A stretch of DNA of 64,000 nt from Cliona cf. orientalis. Taxonomy: Eukaryota; Porifera; Demospongiae; Clionaida; Clionaidae. The notes below the pieces were generated by a model that was not told the DNA's origin, did not search any database, and saw only the letters and a program-made list of their open reading frames with translations. Below are positions 23,670 through 64,000 of the stretch, piece after piece. The stretch lies in the NCBI GenBank assembly GCA_963930775.1, contig OZ005693.1, positions 4,092,001 through 4,156,000 of the forward strand. The letters are read 5' to 3'. Position 1 is the first letter of the stretch. Each line of letters begins with the position of its first letter. A program made the position numbers and the translations under genes.

Positions 23670-26426
23670 TATTATTATTATTATTTTTTTTTTATAGACA
23701 ATGGAGGCCAGGAGGCCCATAAGTCTGAAAAATAGCTGTACTAGAGTGCACAAATAGTATAATAATTGATCAAAGTGATATAATAATATTGTTTATAGGT
23801 GATAATAGCTAATCAATAATATGAACAGTAGACTTTCGTGTTTCCAGGGCTGCGGCAACAAACTTGCAAAATAAAAATATGGTTTTGGGTTGCTCGGCAA
23901 ACGAGATGAACTTGAATTTCTCTAAATTGGATAGAAAGGCGAAGGAATGGTTTACACTTGAACAGTGCTCTATAAGTTTATTTTTCTCCGGCATCGATTT
24001 ATAGAGGTCGCAGTCGAATAGGAAATGTAGCTCATCTTCAACTAGTTGGTTGGAACAGAACCAGCAAAAGCGCTCCTCAGCTGGAATTGGGGTCGGGAGG
24101 TTGTATCTTCCAGTTTCGATTCTAAGGGAATGGGCGCTTGTTCTTAGTCTTGCAGTTGGAACTCGTAAATGGGGAGGAAGATTGAGGTACTTTTCCATTT
24201 TGAAATCATGTTTAATGAGCTTGTATGTTCTAAGCTTCCCTGTGTTAGCTTGAAGCTCACTGGACCATGCTTGGATGTACTGATCTTCAAGTCTTTGTTT
24301 GAGTTCGTTAGCGAATGCATGTGGGTTGACTGAAGATGGGTGGGACCAGACATACGAGTTCCACTTTCATCGAGGATCTGTTTAACATATGAAGTCCATT
24401 GTAGAGAGTGGTTTTTTGCCAGAGTATAGGCCTCTTTGACCAAGGGTGGTAGCTACGTCCCAACTGCCAGCAACTCTCAGCCAGTACTTCACCATTAGAA
24501 TCTTCCTTTTGATGATAAGCGGGGATCTGCCTAACTCGCCATAGCAAGCTAAGTTAGTGGTTGTTATTGGCACCCCGAGAGCAGATTTGCAGAATCTTCG
24601 GTGAATGACTTCCAATTCTTCGGCACGTGCATAACCCCATATCTCACAGCCATATTCAGCTACAGGTCGGACTAAGGAGTCAAACAGGTAGCACTGTAAC
24701 GAGGGATCGGGATGGGATAAATGGGAGAGTGACTTTAAAAGAGAGAAGCAAGCTTTCCTGGTTTGATTCGCAAGTGTTAAGATGGCTGGTCTGAGGGATC
24801 CAGTATCCGATAATACGATGCCTAGGTACTTATACTCGTTTGTAGCTTCAAGTGGAGATGAGCTCAATGTAAAATGGGGTCCTCCCTTTTTGTTATTGAA
24901 TGCAACAGTTTTCGTCTTATCGATATTTATTTTCAGATCCCATGTTAGGCAGTATTCCTCTAGAAGATCGATTGATGTCTGCAAGCCTGAGTGAGAATCC
25001 GCCAGGAGGGCTAAATCATCGGCAAAGAGGAGGAGATGTGCCTTCTTGCTTCCTAAATGGATACTTCCTGAGTTATTTGCTGACAAGTGTGATTCTAGAT
25101 CGCTTATAAAAAGGCTAAAGAGGAGAGGGCTCAAATTACAGCCCTGTCTGACCCCTTTTGAACAGTGAAATGTTGGGGACATCGTTCCGTTAGCCACAAC
25201 TCTGGATGTAGCTTTACCATACATGCTTTGAAGGATTTTTAGCATTCTGCCACCGAGCCCCATTGAGGCGAGTTTGCTCCATAACAGGCCATGGTTGACA
25301 GAGTCGAAGGCCTTAGCAAAATCAACAAAGCAAGTGTATAGTGTTGCTTTCCTTTTTTTATGATGTTGTATTGCTATACTCATTATGAACAGAGGATCGG
25401 TTGTTCTCCTTCCCTGTCTGAATCCGAATTGAGCGTCATTAATTTTATCATTGATATCTGCCCAGTACTGAATTCTTTCCCTTAAGATTGCTGTAAAGAG
25501 CTTACTTAAGATGGGTAGCAAGGTAATTCCTCTATAGTTATTTGGATCTTCTTTGCAACCTTTCTTGTAGATTGGTTTGATTGCTCCAGAGCTCCAGGAG
25601 TCAGGGAAAATCCCTTGCTCCAGTAGTCTGTTGAAAAGTATTGTAGTGAATGATATGAGATCGCTGTTGAACAGCTTGAAAGCAGTGGGTGAGAGACCAT
25701 CAAGGCCAGGGGCCTTGTTTTTCTTCAGGCATGAAATTGCTGCCCTCACTTCCTCTTCTTCGATAGGATCGTCTAGAATAGGGTTCGTTTCGGAATTATG
25801 GGGAGGAACAGCATGAGATCTGACCTCAGAACCCGTTAACAAAGACTCAAAGTATGCCCCCAACCGATCAGTGGATACAGGGATTTCCTTGTCATCAGTG
25901 TTTGTACTGGTTGCATTGGCAATTTTCCTCCAGAATTCGCGAGGGTTTTTCGATTTAAATTCTTTGAGCTCAGTGTGCAATTTGGATATGATATTGCGTT
26001 TCTTTTGCCTAATTAAGTTCTTATATTTGCGTTTATTCTTCCAGGCAAGATCTCTGAGCAGCATATTGTCTGGATCTGCCTTCAGTTTCCTGGCAGATTT
26101 TTTAAAGATTCTCTTGGCTTGCTTGCATTCTTCATCAAACCATGTGTTTTGAGGAAACGAGTTTGATTTCTTTCTTTTATTGTTCCTTTCGGGGCTAGTA
26201 GTCAGCAAGGTAGATTTCAGAAGGGAAATAAATTGGTCAGCACATTCTGCAGCAGGTACTGAGGCTAGCTTGACAGATAGGGTGGATAGGTTGTTCAAGA
26301 ACTCCCCTCTGGAGAAAGCTTCAGCAATATTTTCTTCCGGTAATTGTCTGCTAGATGCAGAGCTGAGGCAATTGTCATCAACATTCTCTGTTTCGCTCTA
26401 ACATGTCATGAGACCACCAGAGTAGT
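23670..26426 (-). mobile_element. 5'-truncated LINE inserted into the GGTACC element
   Basis: The insertion separates GTCGTTGCGGTTAAT from AGTTAAGCAAGAATG, which are adjacent in the other copy of the host element. GTTAAT stands on both sides (23664-23669 and 26427-26432) as target duplication. The 3' end, at the left, has an ATT/poly-T (AAT/poly-A) tail. The endonuclease part is absent, so the copy is 5'-truncated as is usual for target-primed reverse transcription. Confidence 0.85.
23809..26400 (-). pseudogene. Non-LTR reverse transcriptase, frameshifted
   Basis: The minus strand encodes a reverse transcriptase: NNYRGITLLPILSKLF, then FGFRQGRRTTD, then FVDFAKAFDSVNHGLLW, then GVRQGCNLSPLLFSLF, and the catalytic LLLFADDLALLA. 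The thumb follows, then AEYGCEIWG and ACYGELGRSPL, and last a Cys/His block CWFCSN-x6-HFLFDCD near the C terminus. Open frame runs from below 26400, but the coding path changes frame near 24443 and again near 24360, so this copy cannot make the whole protein. The layout fits the Jockey/CR1/L2 side of LINEs; the exact clade is not decided. No full endonuclease domain is present. Confidence 0.88.
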
Positions 26427-51901: not shown

Positions 51902-54900
51902 TTAAATTTTGTGACCCGTTTCAGTGGTTATCTCTGCAAAGTTATCTGAGTCCATAGTATCGTCATTTGTTGAGGTTGATTTCGGAGCCTCAACTACAGT
52001 GCAAGTAGGCTGATTCAACTCAAACACTGCTCCAGATTCACTGCCATTGACATTGATAGTGTTGTCAACTGATTCAAAGAGAATGTGTAGTCCATGATCA
52101 CGTCTATCATCATCATAATCTTGCTCTGGTGTTTGTGAATGGTTTGATTTTTGGCTGAAGTGTACCTCAAATGGCATTTTAAGTACCATGCAATATTTGT
52201 TGGTGCAAAGCTTTGAAAGAATTTTCGTATAAACATACAAGTGATAAAAGGCTATGATAAGCAGAAGGATGAATGCAGCAATGACAGAAATATATGCAAC
52301 AGCTCTTTGGTTGATACTAGTGTCTAAAGCAAGCCAGGTAAATGATGTTAGAAACAAAATGTTTACATAGGAAACAGTTTCAATGAAATCTACCTCCCAT
52401 TTCGTGTAGATACTTCCAATAAAGCTTTTAAGAAGCACTATGCAACTAACTGTGATGGTGACTGATGCAAGTGTAACTCTAGGACCTCCAGACACATTAA
52501 GTGCTGCCACAAGATAAAGTGCAATTCGGACAAGAAGCAAAAGTCCAGTCCAGTATCGATGCTTGGATGTGTAGGGAATAGTGTACATCTCCATGAAAGT
52601 ACGGAACTTGGGATTGTTAATGATCTTGTTAATCAACTTATTTTGACAAGATGGAATCCATTGCCAAGTGAATAGAAGGATAGTGTACACCAGGCCAGCT
52701 ACCAGGATGAAGATCGCAGCAAGAAATAGAACTGTGTGTTTGCTGGAGAAATAATTGACTGTAGCATCGGGTAGCCACACTGCATCTTCAGTGCCATCAG
52801 GATACTGTAGGGTACCATAAGAGAGAGCAGTGATGACAGTTTGGATGAATTTGGCATAAGACAGTAATATCAGTGTGGCCAGGGTTTCCACAGGACTTTT
52901 TCCAATCATGCGAGAGAATCGACTGGAATAGTTGCTAGAGAAGATGACTATGATTACGAGCAGAATGACATATGCTGGAAAGACAAACTGCAACCATGCT
53001 TTAGTGTATGCATCCATACCAGGATAATAACACACATTGTCTATTCCAAATTCTAAATTGAGCCATGATATGAAAACAGTGGCAAAATTTGAACCCGTAT
53101 ATGGGAGAAGAATACTTTTATCCACAGCCACAATGTTTGCATAGAAAATCAGCCCATTGAGAGTTCCAACTGCGACAGTCAGCTTGAGAGCTAGCAAAAG
53201 GATTACTAACACTATGCCAGCTATTAGGGCAGCCAAATTAATGACCACAAATGTTGCAGGCCAGTAGCTAGGACAAGAGAGACAACGAGAGCTTCCAAGA
53301 GAGAGAGCGAGACCAGGTTGGCAAGATCCGCATAAGAGCCCTGTACGATTAAATCTACACTGTGCATCAGCTCCGTCAGGCCGGTTTAAATTCACTGAAA
53401 CACCACTTTCGAAGCAGTAACCAAATGGGCAGTGGAGATAGATTAAATAGCCAGCAATACCAGTCTCGTTGATGTAAGCTATCCATATATCAAATTCTCG
53501 AAATAACTGTTCAGTAGTGGAGTTGCAACTAACGTAATCCTTTATAGCATCATGGCAGTGGCAATCACAACTCACATCTGCAGATTGAAATCCAATAGGA
53601 CATAACTTACAGGGAATGAACTGAATATTGACAGTGATGGAGGACTGGGGAGCATCTCTACAGGGTCCATCAGAAGCATAAAGAGTCAACTGTTCTGAAT
53701 CATGGGCAGATAAAGCTCGTAGAGAAATACTTTGACAGGTTTTGGTTATGAAGCTTAGCTGACCTTCTGTGAGCACACTTTGTGTTGATCTTAAATGACC
53801 AGTTACTGTAGCATTTATGGGACGACCAACCTGATTCATGGCAGTCAGTGATACAATGAAAATCTGTCCCTTCTTAACTTTAATTTCAGGTATGTATGAA
53901 CAGTTTTGTTGACCGTTAATGCATGGACAAACTTGAACAGGACCAGATGTAATCGAAGCAAAATCATTATTATTTAGTGAAGATGTATTTTCGAGGTATT
54001 GAACTCCACTTAATATATGAATACCATATTTGTGATTGATTTCTGCAAAGGGACTTGTTGTACATCTGTCTAGCAGACCACCATGAAGAATGGGACCAGA
54101 TTTCAAAGCATGATTGTTGAAAAATTCAATGTGAGTTATATAAAGGTTAGGTAAAAATACAAGATGACGAGATAATACCTGAAAGAAGCATTCAGAAGTT
54201 GGGTCATTGGGTGTACTATTGCATGCTCCTACTGAATTTGTGTAATCATCAACAAACATGGCTCCTCCATAATTCGCTCTGTTCGACAGAAAAATGATTG
54301 TGTAATCTGAAATGCGATAGCTATAGAAGTTAGAGTCATACTGTGATATGAGGAGTTTAAAATTTGATTCCAGTGACATCCCACCACCTTCATTCGCTGT
54401 ATTTCCAATGAACTCTATCCACTTTAGTTGAGCAGAGAGTCGAGGAGCATCGAGCATAATTAGGGAACTGATTGCATGGATTCCTCCCCCTCTCCTCACG
54501 GCCTCATTCCCTTGGATAATCAGATGACAATTCTGTCCACAGGAAATTTCACTTTGGTAGAGGTACACACCACCTCCATTCTCCGTTGCTCTGTTGTTTT
54601 GTATCGTGATTGGTGCATTGACATGGAGTTGGCTTTGTGTGGCATAAATACCCCCTCCGTTTTCTCTACTGTTGTTTTCCAGCTGGTAAAATGATCCATT
54701 GAAATGTATTGTACTCTGAAGTATTGAGATAGCTCCATCAGGGGTATTATTCATAAACTCTCCATTTGCATCAAAAAGGATATTGCTGCTCAGTATGACA
54801 ACTGATCCCAGGTTATTTGAAAATATGAAGCTTCCAGAAATGTGCCCAGTAGTCAAGCCAATAAAGAATACATGAGTGTCTCCTGCTGAATTATTGGAGG

Positions 54901-55468
54901 CAATAATTGAACCATTTATTGTCAGGCTCCGTGCAGCGCTGTATACTGCTCCTCCATGGTCTGCAGAATTGTTGATAAAAACAGTTCCACTGTCATAGTT
55001 AGTTTGTCCATTATCTGTAATGGTGTTTCGACTACCAAAAATTTTGAGATCAGTGTTTAATCCTACTGTGTACAGAGCTCCACCATAATTTGATGCAGAA
55101 TTACCAATGAAGTAACAAGAAAATAAGGCGAAATTGCTTATTAGACCACTTAGAGCTCCTCCTGAATCACTTACAGCCGTGTTAAAGAAAAATGTGGTAT
55201 CTGCTATGGTTACGATATTGTCACGCCATGTACGTATCGCACCTCCTCCGTAGACTAAGACTGAATTCCTTTCAAAATGGCAGGAATTTATATCAATATT
55301 GCTTCCCATTTGGTTATCCATCACACCTCCCCAAAGACCAGCTAAATTAAAACTGAATACACTGTTACCATAATGAACTGTGGATCTGATACCTCTCTGT
55401 ACTCCACCGTATAATGCACTATTAACAACTTCTATTTTATAGTGGGAAATTCTAATTTGTATTTTTTT
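51902..55468 (-). CDS. GGA-repeat beta-helix receptor with multi-pass C-terminus (5' incomplete)
   Basis: One long exon from a likely acceptor (TTTCCTCAG) at 55468 to the stop at 51902 encodes 1188 residues. The first half is a parallel beta-helix of GGA and FxxN turns (for example GGGAI, GGALY, GGGIY, GGAMF), as in chlamydial Pmp proteins and the large animal families built on the same repeat. A cysteine-rich segment follows (CPIGFQSADVSCDC and GLLCGSCQPGLALSLGSSRC-x2-CP). The last third has about nine hydrophobic helices, then a tail rich in acidic and Ser/Thr residues. A surface adhesion or sensing role is inferred. No signal peptide is visible and no in-frame ATG lies before 55324, so the 5' end is missing; only about 100 bp separate this exon from the next gene on the same strand. 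Confidence 0.8.
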   Translation of the reverse strand, partial: KKIQIRISHYKIEVVNSALYGGVQRGIRSTVHYGNSVFSFNLAGLWGGVMDNQMGSNIDINSCHFERNSVLVYGGGAIRTWRDNIVTIADTTFFFNTAVSDSGGALSGLISNFALFSCYFIGNSASNYGGALYTVGLNTDLKIFGSRNTITDNGQTNYDSGTVFINNSADHGGAVYSAARSLTINGSIIASNNSAGDTHVFFIGLTTGHISGSFIFSNNLGSVVILSSNILFDANGEFMNNTPDGAISILQSTIHFNGSFYQLENNSRENGGGIYATQSQLHVNAPITIQNNRATENGGGVYLYQSEISCGQNCHLIIQGNEAVRRGGGIHAISSLIMLDAPRLSAQLKWIEFIGNTANEGGGMSLESNFKLLISQYDSNFYSYRISDYTIIFLSNRANYGGAMFVDDYTNSVGACNSTPNDPTSECFFQVLSRHLVFLPNLYITHIEFFNNHALKSGPILHGGLLDRCTTSPFAEINHKYGIHILSGVQYLENTSSLNNNDFASITSGPVQVCPCINGQQNCSYIPEIKVKKGQIFIVSLTAMNQVGRPINATVTGHLRSTQSVLTEGQLSFITKTCQSISLRALSAHDSEQLTLYASDGPCRDAPQSSITVNIQFIPCKLCPIGFQSADVSCDCHCHDAIKDYVSCNSTTEQLFREFDIWIAYINETGIAGYLIYLHCPFGYCFESGVSVNLNRPDGADAQCRFNRTGLLCGSCQPGLALSLGSSRCLSCPSYWPATFVVINLAALIAGIVLVILLLALKLTVAVGTLNGLIFYANIVAVDKSILLPYTGSNFATVFISWLNLEFGIDNVCYYPGMDAYTKAWLQFVFPAYVILLVIIVIFSSNYSSRFSRMIGKSPVETLATLILLSYAKFIQTVITALSYGTLQYPDGTEDAVWLPDATVNYFSSKHTVLFLAAIFILVAGLVYTILLFTWQWIPSCQNKLINKIINNPKFRTFMEMYTIPYTSKHRYWTGLLLLVRIALYLVAALNVSGGPRVTLASVTITVSCIVLLKSFIGSIYTKWEVDFIETVSYVNILFLTSFTWLALDTSINQRAVAYISVIAAFILLLIIAFYHLYVYTKILSKLCTNKYCMVLKMPFEVHFSQKSNHSQTPEQDYDDDRRDHGLHILFESVDNTINVNGSESGAVFELNQPTCTVVEAPKSTSTNDDTMDSDNFAEITTETGHKI

Positions 55469-55566
55469 CTGAGGAAATTTACTACTTTGTCCACTTTCTT
55501 TCAGGAACTTTAATCACTCTGTATTAATATCCAAGATATGGTATACATCTTACAAAAAAAAAGAAG

Positions 55567-58500
55567 TCAAATATTACAGAGTTCCTTATTTAAACGTCTC
55601 TTGATGAGGGTCAGTGTTTGATCCTCTGCAGTGTTCAAGCTGCTTCTGTTTGCCTTTAAGCAGCCCATTGTTGGCTCTTCTACATGGAGAAAACAAGATA
55701 AACATAATTGATCCGAATATAAGGGATCTGTAATTTCAGAAGTACATTTAGAATTTGTGGAGCTAAAATGCTTATACACTTCAGACTCTACATGATATTA
55801 GAATACCATGGCGTCTGAAATTTCAGAAGTCAACATTTTAGAAATTCTAAGGTTGAAATGCTCAAATACTTCAGATTCTGAAAGCATTCGAATGACAATG
55901 GGGTCTGAAATTTCAGAAGTTAACATGTCAGAAGTTAACATTTTAGAATGTAATCAAACAGAAATTTTAGGGTTGAAATGCTCAAATAGTCCAGATTCTA
56001 GAATGAAAATGAGGTCTGAAATTTCAGAAGTTATATAATAATAAAATGAAATCAACCAGAACACCCTGGGTAGAAATGCTATATAAGAAGTACAGAATTT
56101 GTGGAGCTAAAATGCTTAAACAGTTCAGACTCTATATACAATGTCATGATTATCAGAATACTATGGTATCTGAAATTTCAGAAGTCAGCATTTTAGAATG
56201 AAGTCAACCTGAAATACTTCAGATTCTGAAAGCATTCGAATGACAATGGGGTCTGAAATTTCAGAAGTTAACATTTTAGAATGAATCGAATGTCAACCAG
56301 AAATCTAAGGTTGAAATGCTCAAATAGTCCAGATTCTGAAAGCTTTATAATGACTATGGGGTCTGAAATTTCAGATGTTAATATTTTAGACTGAAATGAA
56401 TCAGAAATTCTAAGGTTGAAATGCTCAAATAGTTCAGATTCTGAAAGCATTAGAATGACAATGGGGTCTGAAATTTCAGAAGTTAACATTAATTATTTTT
56501 AGAATGTAATCAAACAGAAATTTTGGGGTTGAAATGCTCAAATACTCCAGATTCTAGAATAAAAATGAGGTCTGAAATTTCAGAAGTTATAATAATAGAA
56601 TGAAGTCAACCAGAACACCCTGTGTAGAAATGCTATATAAGGGATCTGTAATTTCAGAAGTACATTTAAAAGTACAGAATTTGTGGAGCTAAAAATGCTT
56701 AAACAGTTCAGACTCTACATGATTATTAGAATGCCATGGTGTCTGAAATTTCAGAAGTCAACATTTTAGAATGAAATTAACCAGAAATTCTATCATAATA
56801 GTTGAAATGCTCAAATAGTTCAGATTCTGAAAGCATTAGCATGACAATGGGGTCTAAAATTTCAGAAATTAACATTAATTACTTTTAGAATGTAATCAAA
56901 CAGAAACGTTGGGGTTGAAATGCTCAAATACTCCAGATTCTAGAATAAAAATGAGGTCTGAAATTTCAGAAGTTATAATAATAGAATGAAGTCAACCAGA
57001 ACACCCTGGGTAGAAATGCTATATAAGGGATCTGTAATTTCAGAAGTACATTTAAAAGTACAGAATTTGTGGAGCTAAAAATGCTTAAACAGTTCAGACT
57101 CTACATGGTTATTAGAATGCCATAGTGTCTGAAATTTCAGATGTCAACATTTTAGAATGAAATTAACCAGAAATTCTATCATAATAGTTGAGATGCTCAA
57201 ATAGTTTAAATTCTGAAAGCATTAGAATGACAATGGGGTCTGAAATTTCAGAAGTCAACATTTTAGATTGAAGTCAACCAGAAAATTTAAGGTTGAAATG
57301 CTCAACTATTTCGATTCTGGAATAAAATGAGGTCTGAAATTTCAGAGCAGAAATATTTGGCTCTAAAATTTTAGAGCTCCAAATGAATTCATAATTTGCA
57401 CAATATTGTACATTAAAATGTGCTTACCACTCTGTATGGAAAGATTGAGAACCCAGTCGGATGGGCTTGTGTAGAGTTTAACAAGCTCTGCATACACCCC
57501 TCTCTGGAAATCATGTGGCCCAAATGGTTCCCCACCATCATCCTTGAGGGAGTGTGCCTCTGAGTCAAAAAGGTTGGACTTCCTCACTGTTCCGTCAGAA
57601 CACAAGCCACTCCTGCCAACCACAATTGCCACAACAGACTCAGAGAGAGAACACCCAGGAGAAACTATGTATGCAAGAATAATTATGTTATAATAATATT
57701 ACTGACATTACAGACACATAATTCATTAACTGTACTCACCTCTGTCAACCTCTCCCATATTGACAAAGCCTAACTCTATTCCTTCCAGTCCACAATCTTG
57801 AAGTGTAGTCCTCACAGTAGTGATGGAGAAGGGTTTACATATCACAGCTGTGGTGAAACTCATCTGCCCAAGTGTGGTGTTGATTGCCTTCACACATCTA
57901 ATGCTCACACTAAGATTTTGATGAATCTGAATAGGAAAAATGAAATGTACCTAAAGCATATCACATCCTACTTAAAGTATAATTACCTCTTCTTCTTGAA
58001 TAATGTTGATTGTGACCAAAGTTAATCCATTGCAGTTAAGGCCATTGGAGGTGCACAAGTCTGTCACAGTGCCATAGTCAAGTGATGTATGCTGCTGCAT
58101 CATTATTGCAGAGCTATTCCCCATTGAATAGCGACCCAATAGCTCAGATGTTGAAGGAGCATCCACCTTGCTCTTGAGAGCCATCTGACAGAATTCTTTG
58201 AACCTGGAAGATAGAATCAGTCCCACTGTTAACTACTTATTCCAGTGGTGTACATATACCGATCTCTACACTAAGCTAAACCTACTGAAATGTTGGTGTA
58301 GGATTCTATTCTTGTTATATACCTCTGAGGCATACTCTTCACAGGGCACTTCTTGAATTCATCAAGGGCTTCTGGTGTGGCAAACGTTGGGAATTCCTTC
58401 TCTGCTTCTCTCCATGAAGATACGCCAGTCTCTCTCACAAACATCTCTTGTACTTCCTTTAACTTCTTTATTTCTCTGCACTCCACAGTCATCTCTTGAA

Positions 58501-61500
58501 TTGACATCTCTTTCTTGATCACTCCTTGTAGCACAGTTATAGCTATCTGCGTGTCCAGTCCCCTCATAGCCTTGAAGTTGCTACCTGAATAAACAAACAA
58601 ATTGATGAGTAATTTTTAAGTTCATGTTATTTATCTATAGATTTACAATTTTACCCTTCAGCTCCAATACTTTCCCTAGTGATCCTCTTTTCACTTTCTG
58701 CCCTTTCAGCATTCCCTTCCCATAGAGCTGGAAGACTTTCTCCACTAGAGAAAACACCTCATTCGGCAGAGAGGCCAAGAAAAACACGCAGGCATCATCC
58801 AGAGCAGTCACCTATTGGTCATTCAACATAATTTTGATAAAGAAGTACTATAATTCTTTACCTCATCCATCAACAGTCCGGCACAATAGCCTCTCCAACT
58901 CTTTGGCTTCTCTGGTGTTGGCTCAGTCAAGGGTGTGTTTATTACTTTAAAGAGAGAGTTACGGCAGAATTGTATCTATGTAGGGTGTATGAAAAACACA
59001 ATTTCATCAATGTTCTCTAGGTTGAAGAAGCTAGAGATGCAATGACATACCTTCTCCCAGTGACTCATACTGTGTTGAAGAGATGTGGCATTGTTATGTT
59101 TAGAAGCCAACCTGTATGCTTCCTCATTGCTTAGACCAGAATACACTGAAACCAGCCGAGTCCTAAAGGCAGCGGGAGGGTTCTCCAGTTCTTCACATAG
59201 AGCCTGGAGTGCTGCTCGAGAGTGATTTCCTCCAAGGGTCTCATACAGGTACGTTTCCTTCTTTGACTCATCAAAACTCTCACCTGAATGAAGCATAATA
59301 ATTATAGTCATTATTAATTATGTCAAACCAATTGCAAGTAACTGAGTTGACATATTGTACAGAAAGGTTATAACGAATTTTGCTCAAATACACCAGCCGA
59401 AGTGAAAGTTTGATATTACAAACGTTTCGGCAGCTATACAACTGCCATCATCAGTGCAATAGACAGATACAGCGGCATATATATAATTATATGAAATCCT
59501 AAAAATGAGTAAACTAAAAAACAAGCATGCATTGACATCATAATTCACTCAAAACATGTCAATGAAAGAAGAATAAACAACACTATTGAAGTCCGAGAAT
59601 GCTATAATTGTACTCGGTAGACAGAGACCCAACATCCCTGTTCATCCCTGTTAAGAGTAGTTCCGATTGTTCTGGTTTTAATGTAAGATGAGATTGAAGT
59701 AATGGACCTCATGGCTAATAACATTGCAACAGTAAATCAGTCTATCATACCTTCATCCAAGACTACTAAGCCCACTATTGGAGCTGCATTGATAGAAGGA
59801 TTAGCCTTCATCGCCTTCTTTAACTCCTCGACCCGACCATCTTTGGCAGTCCTCAGCAAGCGATCTGAGTGAGGCTCTACCAGACAGCTGATTGGAAGTG
59901 TGTAGTAGCCTATGAAACATAATGTCATAGTGGTTAATGTAATATTACATTGTCAGTGATTTGTTTAGTCTGATGGTTCAATGAATGACAAGCAAAAGTA
60001 GCTACATACCGATGAACGAGCGTAAAATAGCATCATCTAGTTCCTTCTCCTTCTCCTGGACAGAGGCTTGTGATCCTGGAGTTGTTGTCAATGCTCTCTT
60101 TGTCACTTTGATGGGCCTGATATTTGGTGTCTTCTCTACCAGAGGCCTCTTACTGAATGTACAATCATGTATGCATGGAAGTATTCATTAAAGTCAACTA
60201 TTGACATACCCAAACAATTGATGTTATGTAATTATAATATAGTTAGACTAGACTATAGTCCGGAGTGGTTTAGCCTTGGTACAATCATGTAAACTGCCCA
60301 GCTGTGGTATAACTGTGCAGTTATACCATGGGTAACTTAGCGATTGCATATAGGGTACAAGCCACTAAGACCATAGCTACAGCCTGTCTACCATATACAC
60401 AATAGTAATAGTTGCTGAACTTGAAACGTCCTGATGTTGTATGTATTAACTGTGTCTATCTGCTCAAGAAGATAATATTATGATTGTTGAAACATATTGT
60501 AGCATAAATGCAACATACCGAGTGTTTGAGCTTGGTGTTACACAGGGAGTGGTTTGTGAGGGGGAAGTTTGATTCAGAGAGGGCGGGGGTGATTGGAAGG
60601 AAGAGGAAAGAGACTGATCAGCCGAGCTCTGGCTGTCCAGTTCATCTGAATCTCCAAAAACGGTGGATGCAATGCCAGTGTCTGGATCCAAGGTTGGTGA
60701 GATGTACTTAGACCACACTCTTGCCACGTCTTCTTCACTTCTCGCACCTCTGGTGTGAAAGTATCTGGATATCCTAGAAGCAGTGAAGTTAAATCCCTTT
60801 ACAGTGAACCCTTTTGATTTTCCATCACTGAATTGGATCTAAAGTATGAAATGTAGAGAACAAAAGTAATATTCTAACACGCTGTCATAGTGTCACATGA
60901 CCCCTCTAAAGTTGCCCCCCCCCCCCCCCCCGGGACACTATACCCTAGTGCAGTATGTCCCCAGGTACGTATTGCATTAGAGTAGGGTGTCTCCTTGGGA
61001 CATTGGACACTAGAACCACTTGTCCTTTCTTAAAGAATAATCTGATGGCATGCTCCCACAGGAGAATTTGACATTTTTAACCCTCATGCAGCAAGTGCTT
61101 ATGAGAGTAGTTTAAATGTGATGGAATACAAAAGTATATATTCTAGCCTTGTACCCAGGCCTTTCTCCCAAGTTCTCTTGAAGGGCCTAGGTACAAGGCT
61201 AATAGCCGCTTAGCTTTGCAGGGCTGGCTCACGCCCCCCCCCCCCCCCCCCCCCCCCCCAACATTTCTCCGTGTCACAGTGGGGACGTGTAACACTGGAG
61301 AGGACATTCTACTCTAGGGCTAGCTACACATGTCCGGGGGGACACATGGCTGAGTGCAGAGTGTCTAGGGGGACACTGTACACGGGGGGGCAGGCAGCAC
61401 TCCGACAACGCTACCTAAGAAAGAAGTATATATATACAGATATAAGGCCAAAACCTAACTATAATGCATGATTTTGAGGTGTCAAAATCCCGTCTTGGAC

Positions 61501-61772
61501 CTCAAACTTGAATCAAACATTAACTTTGTAATTGACAGGAATAGATAACACTCTTAATCATTGTTTAACTGATGCACGCTTTAGCAACAGGCTGAAACTA
61601 TATAGATAAAACAGATCTGTATTTAAAAACCCACTCGAAGAACGGTCTTGTCACCTTTCGCACAGCACTGTACAGAAGTTACATATCCGTTGTCTGATTC
61701 CTTGCCACTCTTAATCACCTGAATCCTTCCATTCTTATCTTGGAGGAAGTGCCAACTTAGTGGAGGGGTCAT
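55567..61772 (-). CDS. ParB-like / DNA methyltransferase-like fusion protein
   Basis: Twelve exons join in frame to 759 residues: 61635-61772, 60519-60838, 60010-60152, 59751-59909, 59051-59283, 58862-58975, 58655-58811, 58323-58584, 57987-58203, 57740-57926, 57428-57664 and 55567-55679. Residues 1-95 hold an unknown domain (FSDGKSKGFTVKGFNF), then a Ser/Pro linker. Residues about 202-300 look like the ParB/sulfiredoxin fold: LPISCLVEPHSDRLLR, VEELKKAMKANPS-x5-PIVGLVV, and YETLGGNHSRAALQ as the nucleotide-binding GGNH box. The C-terminus, LVKLYTSPSDWVLNL and then MGCLKANRSSLNTAEDQ with IKRRL, aligns with the end of beta-class DNA N4/N6 methyltransferases (LIKxxSxPGDxVLDPFxGSGT, GRxxxGIExD, RL). 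The glycine-rich loop is replaced by SIQSEEPT and I find no DPPY-type motif, so activity is doubtful. ParB-methyltransferase fusions are known from phages and bacteria; spliced in an animal, this points to old transfer and domestication. Confidence 0.75.
55800..57350. repeat. Satellite array with TCTGAAATTTCAGA palindrome
   Basis: About 15 diverged units of roughly 100 bp. Each holds the palindrome TCTGAAATTTCAGA, then AACATTTTAGAATG, AACCAGAAATTCTAAGG and TTGAAATGCTCAAATAG, TCAGATTCTGAAAGCATT. A higher-order repeat of several units is visible (56040-56640 and 56600-57020 share AGAACACCCTG-TAGAAATGC). It fills most of the last intron of the ParB/methyltransferase-like gene. Confidence 0.88.
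59340..59500 (-). ncRNA. Penelope-like terminal relic with hammerhead-like core
   Basis: On the minus strand 59424-59454 reads CTGATGA, a stem GGCAG-loop-CTGCC, and GAAAC, the order of the hammerhead ribozyme core (CUGANGA, helix II, GAAA). It is followed by GTTTG-TAATAT-CAAAC, a possible helix III with one mismatched position. Such cores occur in the terminal repeats of Penelope-like retroelements. I cannot pair helix I well, so it is probably a degenerate copy. It sits in intron 4 of the ParB/methyltransferase-like gene. Confidence 0.45.
60915..61260. repeat. Poly-C tracts and TAGCCTTGTACC hairpin in intron 1
   Basis: Poly-C runs near 60917-60932 and 61236-61259 bracket a hairpin at 61144-61203 (TAGCCTTGTACCCAGGCC and its inverse) of the TAGCCT foldback family. 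It lies in intron 1 of the ParB/methyltransferase-like gene. No exon is seen here. Confidence 0.6.
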
Positions 61773-61944: not shown

Positions 61945-61986
61945 CATAGATTATATATTCCCCGGGAGGGGAATATATAATCTATG
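61945..61986. mobile_element. 42-bp hairpin insertion with 7-bp duplication
   Basis: CATAGATTATATATTCCCC and its perfect inverse enclose four bases. ACAGTAC stands on both sides (61938-61944 and 61987-61993). The end CATAGAT and the 7-bp duplication match the 831-bp element at 46645-47475, so this seems a minimal member of that family, almost nothing but its two ends. Confidence 0.7.
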
Positions 61987-62336: not shown

Positions 62337-62704
62337 TAGTTGTAACAAATACTGTGATCTGATTGGACACTCAGAGGTCTCTATTTCTCATAGAGACCTA
62401 CAAGCTTTCATAGAGACCTACAAGTTCTCATAGAGACCTACAAGTTTCATAGAGACCTACGAGTATAGCCAAGGGCAAAGAAAGATGCACAGTGCAACAG
62501 TAGCCTTGTCCTAATTGGGTCAACTGCCACGGTTACAGTTGCTATTATTCTAAATCAGTTAGAGACCTCGTCCAATGGTCTCTACGCTTTTAAGAGACCC
62601 TCAGGCCCTTTGTAGCACCGTCGCTTCGCTCGGGATGCTACAGCCTCGGGCCTTCGGGTCTCTTAAAAATTAATGCGTAGAGACCTTGGACTCGGTCTCT
62701 AACT
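62337..62704. repeat. GAGACC hairpin block
   Basis: TGTAACAAATACTGTGATCT-GATTGG opens a block that also occurs near 17370 and inverted near 8240. From 62557 AGTTAGAGACC runs through GTCTCTACGCTTTTAAGAGACC into its inverse ending at 62704, with GTAGCACCGTCGCTTCGCTC in the loop. CATAGAGACCTACAAG is repeated four times at 62375-62460. A broken relative lies at 17400-17547. Confidence 0.65.
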
Positions 62705-62709
62705 ATTAT

Positions 62710-64000
62710 GTATATACCAAGGGATATGTGAATCCCTCATCCTCACATGTGGAGAACACATCTCAACCATGTCGCCAGTCCACGAAACCTAGAACTATGA
62801 TTGTTAACATCAAAACAAAGATGGTGGTGAAGTTTGAAGCGCTTCAGAGATGATGTGTGTGGAATTAAGAGCTAAAAAGCTATGAAATGTGTACACATTG
62901 CCATATACCGAGGGGTATGTGAATCCCTCATACTCACATGTGGAGAACACACCTCAACCATGTCGCCAGTCCACGAAACTTAGAACTATGATTATTATCA
63001 TCAAAACAAAGGTAGTGGTGAAGTTTGAAGCTTCAGGGATGATGTGTGTGGAATTAAGAGCTAAAAAGCTATGAAATGTGTACACATTGCCGTATACCGA
63101 GGGATATTATGTGAATCCCTCATCCTCACTTGTGGAGAACACACCTCAACCATGTCGCCAGTCCACGAAACTTAGAATTACGATTGTCAACATCAAAACA
63201 AAGATGGTGGTGAGGTTTGAAGCTTCAGAGATGATGTGTGTGGAATTAAGAGCTAAAAAACTATGAAATGTGTACACATTGCCTCAAATCCCTCATACTC
63301 ACATGTGGAGAACACACCTCAACTATGTCGCCAGTCCACGAAACTTAGAACTATGATTATTAGTGTCCTACCAAAGATAGTGGTGAAGTTTGAAGCTTCA
63401 GGGATGATGTGTGTGGAATTAAGAGCTAAAAAGCTATGAAATGTGTACACATTGCCATATACCGAGGGATATGTGAATCCCTCATCCTCACTTGTGGAGA
63501 ACACACCTCAACCATGTTGCCAGTCCACGAAACTTAGAACTATGATTATTAACATCAAAATAAAGATGGTGGTGAAGTTTGAAGCTTCAGAGATGATGTG
63601 TGTGGAATTAAGAGCTAAAAAGCTATGAAATATGTATACACATTGCCATGTACCGAGGGATAATATGTGAATCCCTCATCCTCACATGTGGAGAACACAC
63701 CTCAACTATGTCGCCAGTCCACGAAACTTAGAATTATGATTATTAGTGTCCTACCAAAGATAGTGGTGAAGTTTGAAGCTTCAGGGATGATGTGTGTGGA
63801 ATTAAGAGCTAAATAGCTATGAAATGTGTACATATTGCAGCCATATACCGAGGGATATGTGAATCCCTCATCCTCACATGTGGAGAACACACCTCAAACA
63901 TGTCACCAGTCCACGAAACTTAGAACTATGATTATTAGTGTCCTACCAAAGATAGTAGTGAAATTTGAAGCTTCAGGGATGATGTGTGTGGAATTAAGAG
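62710..64000. repeat. 187-bp satellite array, running off the window
   Basis: Nearly seven units of about 185-190 bp. Each holds ATACCGAGGGATATGTGAAT, CTCACATGTGGAGAACACAC, CACGAAACTTAGAACTATGA and GTGGTGAAGTTTGAAGCTTC, ending AGAGCTAAAAAGCTATGAAA. Units alternate between two variants in the middle (AACATCAAAACAAAGATGG or AGTGTCCTACCAAAGATAG). One unit lacks the ATACCGAGGGATATG part. Open frames through it are repeat artefacts. Confidence 0.9.

Follow-up and report, generated by a model that had tools for sequence, protein, structure and literature searches.

The window analysed here comprises 64,000 nucleotides of the sponge Cliona cf. orientalis (contig OZ005693.1, positions 4,092,001 to 4,156,000, here C5:4092001-4156000, in GCA_963930775.1, an assembly of 216.8 Mb and 149 contigs). 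On its minus strand, between positions 55567 and 61772, it contains a split gene for a protein of 759 amino acids (aa), in which a ParB-like domain is followed by a methyltransferase-like region. This gene lies within an element of 24,468 bp (C5:4147424-4171891; from window position 55424 to beyond 64000), in which a gene with the DUF7869 domain (PF25273) is located head-to-head on the opposite strand and a tandem array of ~192-bp units is found between the two. It is very likely that the ParB-like gene is the second, accessory one of the two genes that a giant DNA transposon carries in an animal genome, its identity as a transposon gene being well shown by the genomic features described below.

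The element is bounded by 32-bp terminal inverted repeats (TIRs), the left one at 55424..55455 (plus strand) and the right one outside the window at C5:4171860-4171891 (30/32 positions identical), and on both sides by a 4-bp target site duplication (TSD), TATT (left copy 55420..55423, right copy C5:4171892-4171895, also outside the window). Both flanks belong to one PMP-repeat gene (PF02415), the downstream part of which occupies 51902..55423 on the minus strand and the upstream part of which continues from C5:4171892 onward. Joining of the flanks, minus one copy of TATT, generates an open frame of 1374 aa, and PMP paralogues at C1:10477339 (63%) and C1:10493321 (58%) span the junction without interruption, which directly demonstrates, at the level of genomic sequence, that the element was inserted into PMP-repeat coding sequence. 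TIRs, TSD and empty site are as in a cut-and-paste DNA transposon, for which the DUF7869 gene would be the putative transposase gene. The same TIR marks the start of a copy on C2, where the flanking sequence differs, another TIR is located 2.1 kb past a DUF7869 match on C1, and the right end of a diverged copy (L032) aligns to the TIR at 26/36 positions. The family of PMP-repeat (Chlam_PMP) genes is a large one in this genome, 149 matches being retrieved with one 139-aa probe (window 51902-55513 and genome-wide).

The DUF7869 gene of the window element is positioned inside the TIRs and is split over several open reading frames (ORFs), and is therefore probably multi-exon. Comparison of the ParB-like protein with its own genome yielded 77 exon-level matches, which were grouped by hand into 29 loci, with identities of 80-98% at the C2 locus, 77-90% at C1:23.53M (where some matches run into introns) and 28-65% at the others. 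Among the matches listed, a scope that applies to all counts of DUF7869 partners given here, a DUF7869 match is present upstream, on the opposite strand and within 24 kb, at 18 of the 29 loci, whereas random placement of the loci produced a mean of 0.6 and at most 6 such pairs in 5000 trials (using the listed matches out of 165, the weakest being left out, a guessed size for one contig, and uniform placement). A passenger, acquired by the transposon from host or bacterial DNA and with no role in its life cycle, would fit the many copies that are fragmentary or without the partner gene, but such a passenger is improbable in view of a divergent two-gene layout that is kept across copies ~30-60% identical in protein, and that is also published in brown algae, as far as the available passages of that work indicate. 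Two of the copies on C1 lie in opposite orientation to each other and share 99% identity over 7.4 kb, in two blocks. DUF7869 matches that have no ParB-like neighbour are also encountered, many of them on the second half of C1 (17-37 Mb) and often as longer single open frames; a further transposon lineage of simpler make-up may have spread in that region.

The C5 and C2 copies differ at 18 of 2280 exon positions as compared to 38 of 2115 positions in introns 1-10 (Fisher p 0.003), with NG86 estimates of 0.0051 for nonsynonymous (dN) and 0.0177 for synonymous (dS) divergence, and one extra base is inserted in the C2 copy when the window copy is taken as reference. On these counts the two copies are a recent duplication under mild coding constraint, as expected for a transposon gene. 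The first-pass annotation had seen here a domesticated bacterial protein, and a single bacterial gene adopted by the animal as an epigenetic regulator would indeed be compatible with the open 12-exon frame and with the low number of exon changes. Such constraint is, however, equally expected of a transposon gene, and the gene is enclosed by TIRs and a TSD inside another gene, recurs at 29 loci (18 of them paired with DUF7869) and carries an insertion in its sister copy. Domestication is thus very improbable and the proposal unsupported, the gene being cargo of a multicopy transposon flanked by TIRs and TSDs.

The ~192-bp array starts within the window at 62712..64000 and continues to C5:4166259 (C5:4162001-4163000 being matched by pattern and not base by base), thereby occupying much of the gap between the divergent ParB-like and DUF7869 genes. 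A 30-mer of the array is matched at 299 places in the genome (≤3 mismatches), as opposed to 0 for the reversed control, and the 100 listed places correspond to eight loci, each beside a ParB-like and/or a DUF7869 match. A search with the whole unit returned 295 matches, of which the 150 listed also represent eight loci, these being the loci of the 30-mer minus the window's own (whose units ranked lower) plus C11:6749.7k. Combining both searches, nine array loci are obtained among the matches listed: six with both genes, two with the ParB-like gene only (C11:6.48M and C11:6.75M) and one with DUF7869 only (C1:13.92M). Besides the window's own array, these places include L036:1-3782, C1:16855-16863k, C11:3101-3119k and C11:6481-6489k, and elements differ in how the array is oriented with respect to the genes. 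Such confinement is not general for repeats in this genome, since another repeat nested in the same transposon a few hundred bases from the array (62425-62532) has 40 matches dispersed over 17 contigs (93-94% identical).

The consensus array units of the window element and of the element at C1:29.79M (47 and 17 full units, respectively) are 95.8% identical, whereas the DUF7869 stretches of the same two elements are 46-49% identical and a ParB-like stretch of 122 aa is 32% identical. This pattern would be better accounted for if the array had recently been exchanged between elements, or homogenised among them, than if it had descended together with the genes, strong constraint on the array being an alternative. 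We consider the shared array to be the most interesting observation of this work: with a near-identical array and compared proteins of 32-49% identity, it offers a concrete candidate DNA target.

Several observations weigh against a two-gene transposon with the array as its protein's target. The right TIR of the C2 copy was looked for and not found, and the L031/L032 pair is without TIR or TSD at its other (DUF7869-side) end; no divergent DUF7869 partner is present within 30 kb at 11 of the 29 loci; and Pfam does not call DUF7869, which we infer to be a DDE-type transposase, a transposase. A 14-bp palindrome of the array unit, AATGTGTACACATT, was considered as a parS-like site and is unsupported, ranking 96 (counted from 0) in conservation among the 14-mers of the unit; because this best palindrome is not specially conserved, there is no direct support for the array as a ParB binding site.

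The ParB-like gene itself consists of twelve minus-strand exons: exon 1 (61635..61772), containing the start codon; exons 2 (60519..60838) and 3 (60010..60152); exons 4 (59751..59909) and 5 (59051..59283), specifying the first half of the ParB-like domain and its GGNHSR motif (aa 271-276, window 59233-59216), respectively; exon 6 (58862..58975); exons 7 (58655..58811) and 8 (58323..58584), encoding a helical middle domain; exons 9 (57987..58203), 10 (57740..57926) and 11 (57428..57664), the first and last of which are methyltransferase-like, with the degenerate motif I position at the 3' end of exon 11; and exon 12 (55567..55679), containing the end of the degenerate methyltransferase and the stop codon. 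The chain adds up to 2280 nt including the stop, with 0 internal stops and GT-AG borders at 11/11 introns, as compared to 55 and 49 stops in the other two frames and a mean of 43 (minimum 29) in 500 base shuffles. Intron 11 measures 1.7 kb, is composed between 56212 and 57346 mostly of degenerate 105/386-bp tandem repeats, and is not of equal length in the C5 and C2 copies. Directly upstream of exon 1 a hairpin with two 18-base arms (61946-61985) is found, which is probably a small recent insertion since the C2 copy is without it.

Independent support for the exon model is provided by the recurrence of its splice sites in copies located elsewhere in the genome. The C2 copy (exons 99.2% identical) retains every splice dinucleotide; copy L028 (35-67% identity by exon) has acceptors at the same position and phase in 9/9 cases and donors that are exact in 7/9 and shifted by 3-6 nt in 2/9; and copy L023 agrees with the exon 1 donor and with the acceptors of exons 2 and 3. 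Across all 8 copies tested, acceptors are exact at 36/48 and donors at 27/49, the remainder being shifted by 3-9 nt or not found there, with most misses coming from the more diverged copies L012 and L014. The split 12-exon gene is hereby confirmed by comparison of genomic copies, the open GT-AG exon chain of the first-pass annotation being present in the sequence as given.

Most ParB proteins and beta-class methyltransferases come from prokaryotes or viruses, which would be in line with contamination, or with a prokaryotic gene carrying splice-like borders by chance. The gene is, however, carried by an 11.46-Mb contig of a 217-Mb assembly that contains wnt genes (ten matches at three places, marking it as an animal genome), its intron positions are kept between copies, and narrow pattern scans gave 42 matches in prokaryote genomes and 30 in viral contigs, with 0 relatives by tblastn. 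Contamination is refuted as far as these data reach, and its probability is practically negligible.

When the 759-aa protein was used as a single sequence in profile searches, nothing significant was retrieved from Pfam, NCBIfam, PHROGs, PDB or a set of 5.8 billion proteins, and a signal was obtained only from alignments of the gene copies (at least 500 matches at E ≤ 0.01, and 29 matches in another such search). The domain of exons 4-5 adopts the ParB/sulfiredoxin (Srx) fold, with bacterial ParB, Noc and KorB and eukaryotic sulfiredoxin as fold relatives at just 12-24% identity in the matches compared, and with free serine kinase, SbnI, SspE and a Dnd-system entry among the fold matches at lower Z. 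The Pfam ParB_N profile (PF02195) does not match, and sulfiredoxin is the top PDB sequence match of the ParB-domain profile at an insignificant E of 0.5; the window protein reads GGNHSR at the position of the sulfiredoxin motif GGCH. The model of the middle domain (mean predicted local distance difference test score, pLDDT, 70.2) has no PDB match at E ≤ 0.001.

The region from aa ~509 to 759 corresponds, in an alignment of seven members, to a full-length methyltransferase-like domain with degenerate motifs. In the window copy the motif IV position, located in exon 9, reads TINII, which does not conform to the catalytic motif [DNS]PP[YFW], and the motif I region reads NLSIQSEEPT, which does not conform to the FxGxG motif for S-adenosylmethionine (SAM); motif IV had at one point been placed at ICKPFS, a position dropped for the upstream TINII once the seven members were aligned. 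PF01555 is matched by one of the seven members (L035, E 0.0062, score under the curated cut-off), and the beta-class enzymes M.RsrI and MboIIA (PDB), whose catalytic and SAM motifs the window copy does not possess, align in the X/I motif region without significance (E 0.072 and 0.74). The C-terminal region is probably a remote homologue of methyltransferases, the similarity being weak. The GGNH-containing ParB/sulfiredoxin-like domain had been correctly recognized at first pass; the beta-class methyltransferase stands as a probable remote homologue whose catalytic and SAM motifs are lost here, and where the C-terminal half of such an enzyme had been supposed, a complete though degenerate domain is the better description.

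For algal relatives, it has been suggested that the transposon marks its own DNA by means of an active N4/N6 DNA methyltransferase. The ParB-to-methyltransferase domain order, as in the available description of the algal element Sola1-1_Ec32, would agree with such an activity, as would VDPPK at motif IV in one subfamily (L030; P0139, P0141, P0147, P0149), a recognisable motif I-II region in L032 and L035, and the PF01555 match of L035. With both motifs degenerate in the window copy and canonical DPPY in 0/7 aligned members, this activity is nevertheless rather unlikely.

Elsewhere in the window, a reverse transcriptase ORF of a retroelement is present at 24385-26397 (PF00078, E 5.8e-37), and two pairs of ORFs of like size or family, 15583-16119/23022-23558 (like size) and 18697-20397/44471-46063, including POT/MFS-like transporters, suggest local duplications.

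As to function, we envisage that the ParB-fold protein binds to the DNA of the element that encodes it, with the array as a possible site of contact, and that the bound protein coats or marks the element, thereby opposing silencing by the host or helping the ends to be assembled, an action akin to that of anti-silencing proteins encoded by transposable elements (TEs), such as VANC, yet exerted through a ParB-type clamp. This proposal is quite possible though short of probable. Deprived of its catalytic and SAM motifs in this copy, the methyltransferase domain would serve as a DNA- or protein-binding scaffold, and binding to the element's own DNA would probably be methylation-free. A more specific version, which we hold as a doubtful possibility, is that in animal giant transposons a ParB-type clamp with a burnt-out methyltransferase loads onto the dedicated ~190-bp array, the latter acting as a shared cis module that is exchanged or homogenised between diverged elements and serves anti-silencing, partition-like clustering or end pairing, DNA coating thereby taking the place of the self-methylation that has been proposed for the algal elements. 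The apparent persistence of the protein with its methyltransferase motifs gone suggests that its core function may lie in binding and not in modification. In any case, transposon accessory proteins of this class, known from algae, are hereby recorded in an animal genome as well, with 29 loci available for comparison.

The 4-bp TSD of the window element agrees with the definition of the Sola1 superfamily, a TSD of this length not being specific to Sola. Among Creative Commons-licensed papers in PMC, DUF7869 is named in none of the literature searched, and just one paper, on Ectocarpus, is relevant to the same gene pair. Its available passages describe Sola1-1_Ec32, a giant 21.5-kb DNA transposon with an accessory gene encoding ParB-like and DNA methyltransferase domains, and report the pair in further eukaryotic transposons (PMC12477816, citing among others Petroll et al. 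2025); the pairing, which the first-pass annotation took to be typical of phages and bacterial mobile elements, has already been published for transposons of algae. Compared by layout, size and domain description, and not by sequence, the two elements are alike in being giant (21.5 kb and 24.5 kb), in carrying the gene opposite to the strand of the transposase gene (in the window element the putative one, DUF7869) and in combining ParB-like and methyltransferase domains in one protein. They differ in that the protein of the brown alga has 1104 aa, whereas the animal gene encodes 759 aa in 12 exons and has lost the methyltransferase motifs, and in that the window element has a large tandem array between its genes, which is unmentioned in those passages. 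A functional parallel, for which no homology is claimed, is provided by VANC of the Arabidopsis VANDAL transposons, anti-silencing proteins whose targets often form tandem repeats according to the passages available (PMC5735166): in both cases a second TE-encoded protein is accompanied by tandem repeats in the element, noncoding targets for VANC and candidate targets here, the role of VANC being experimentally shown and that of the window protein inferred. In this comparison, the ParB-like gene of Cliona belongs to a known kind of accessory gene of transposons, of which it is a variant in an animal.
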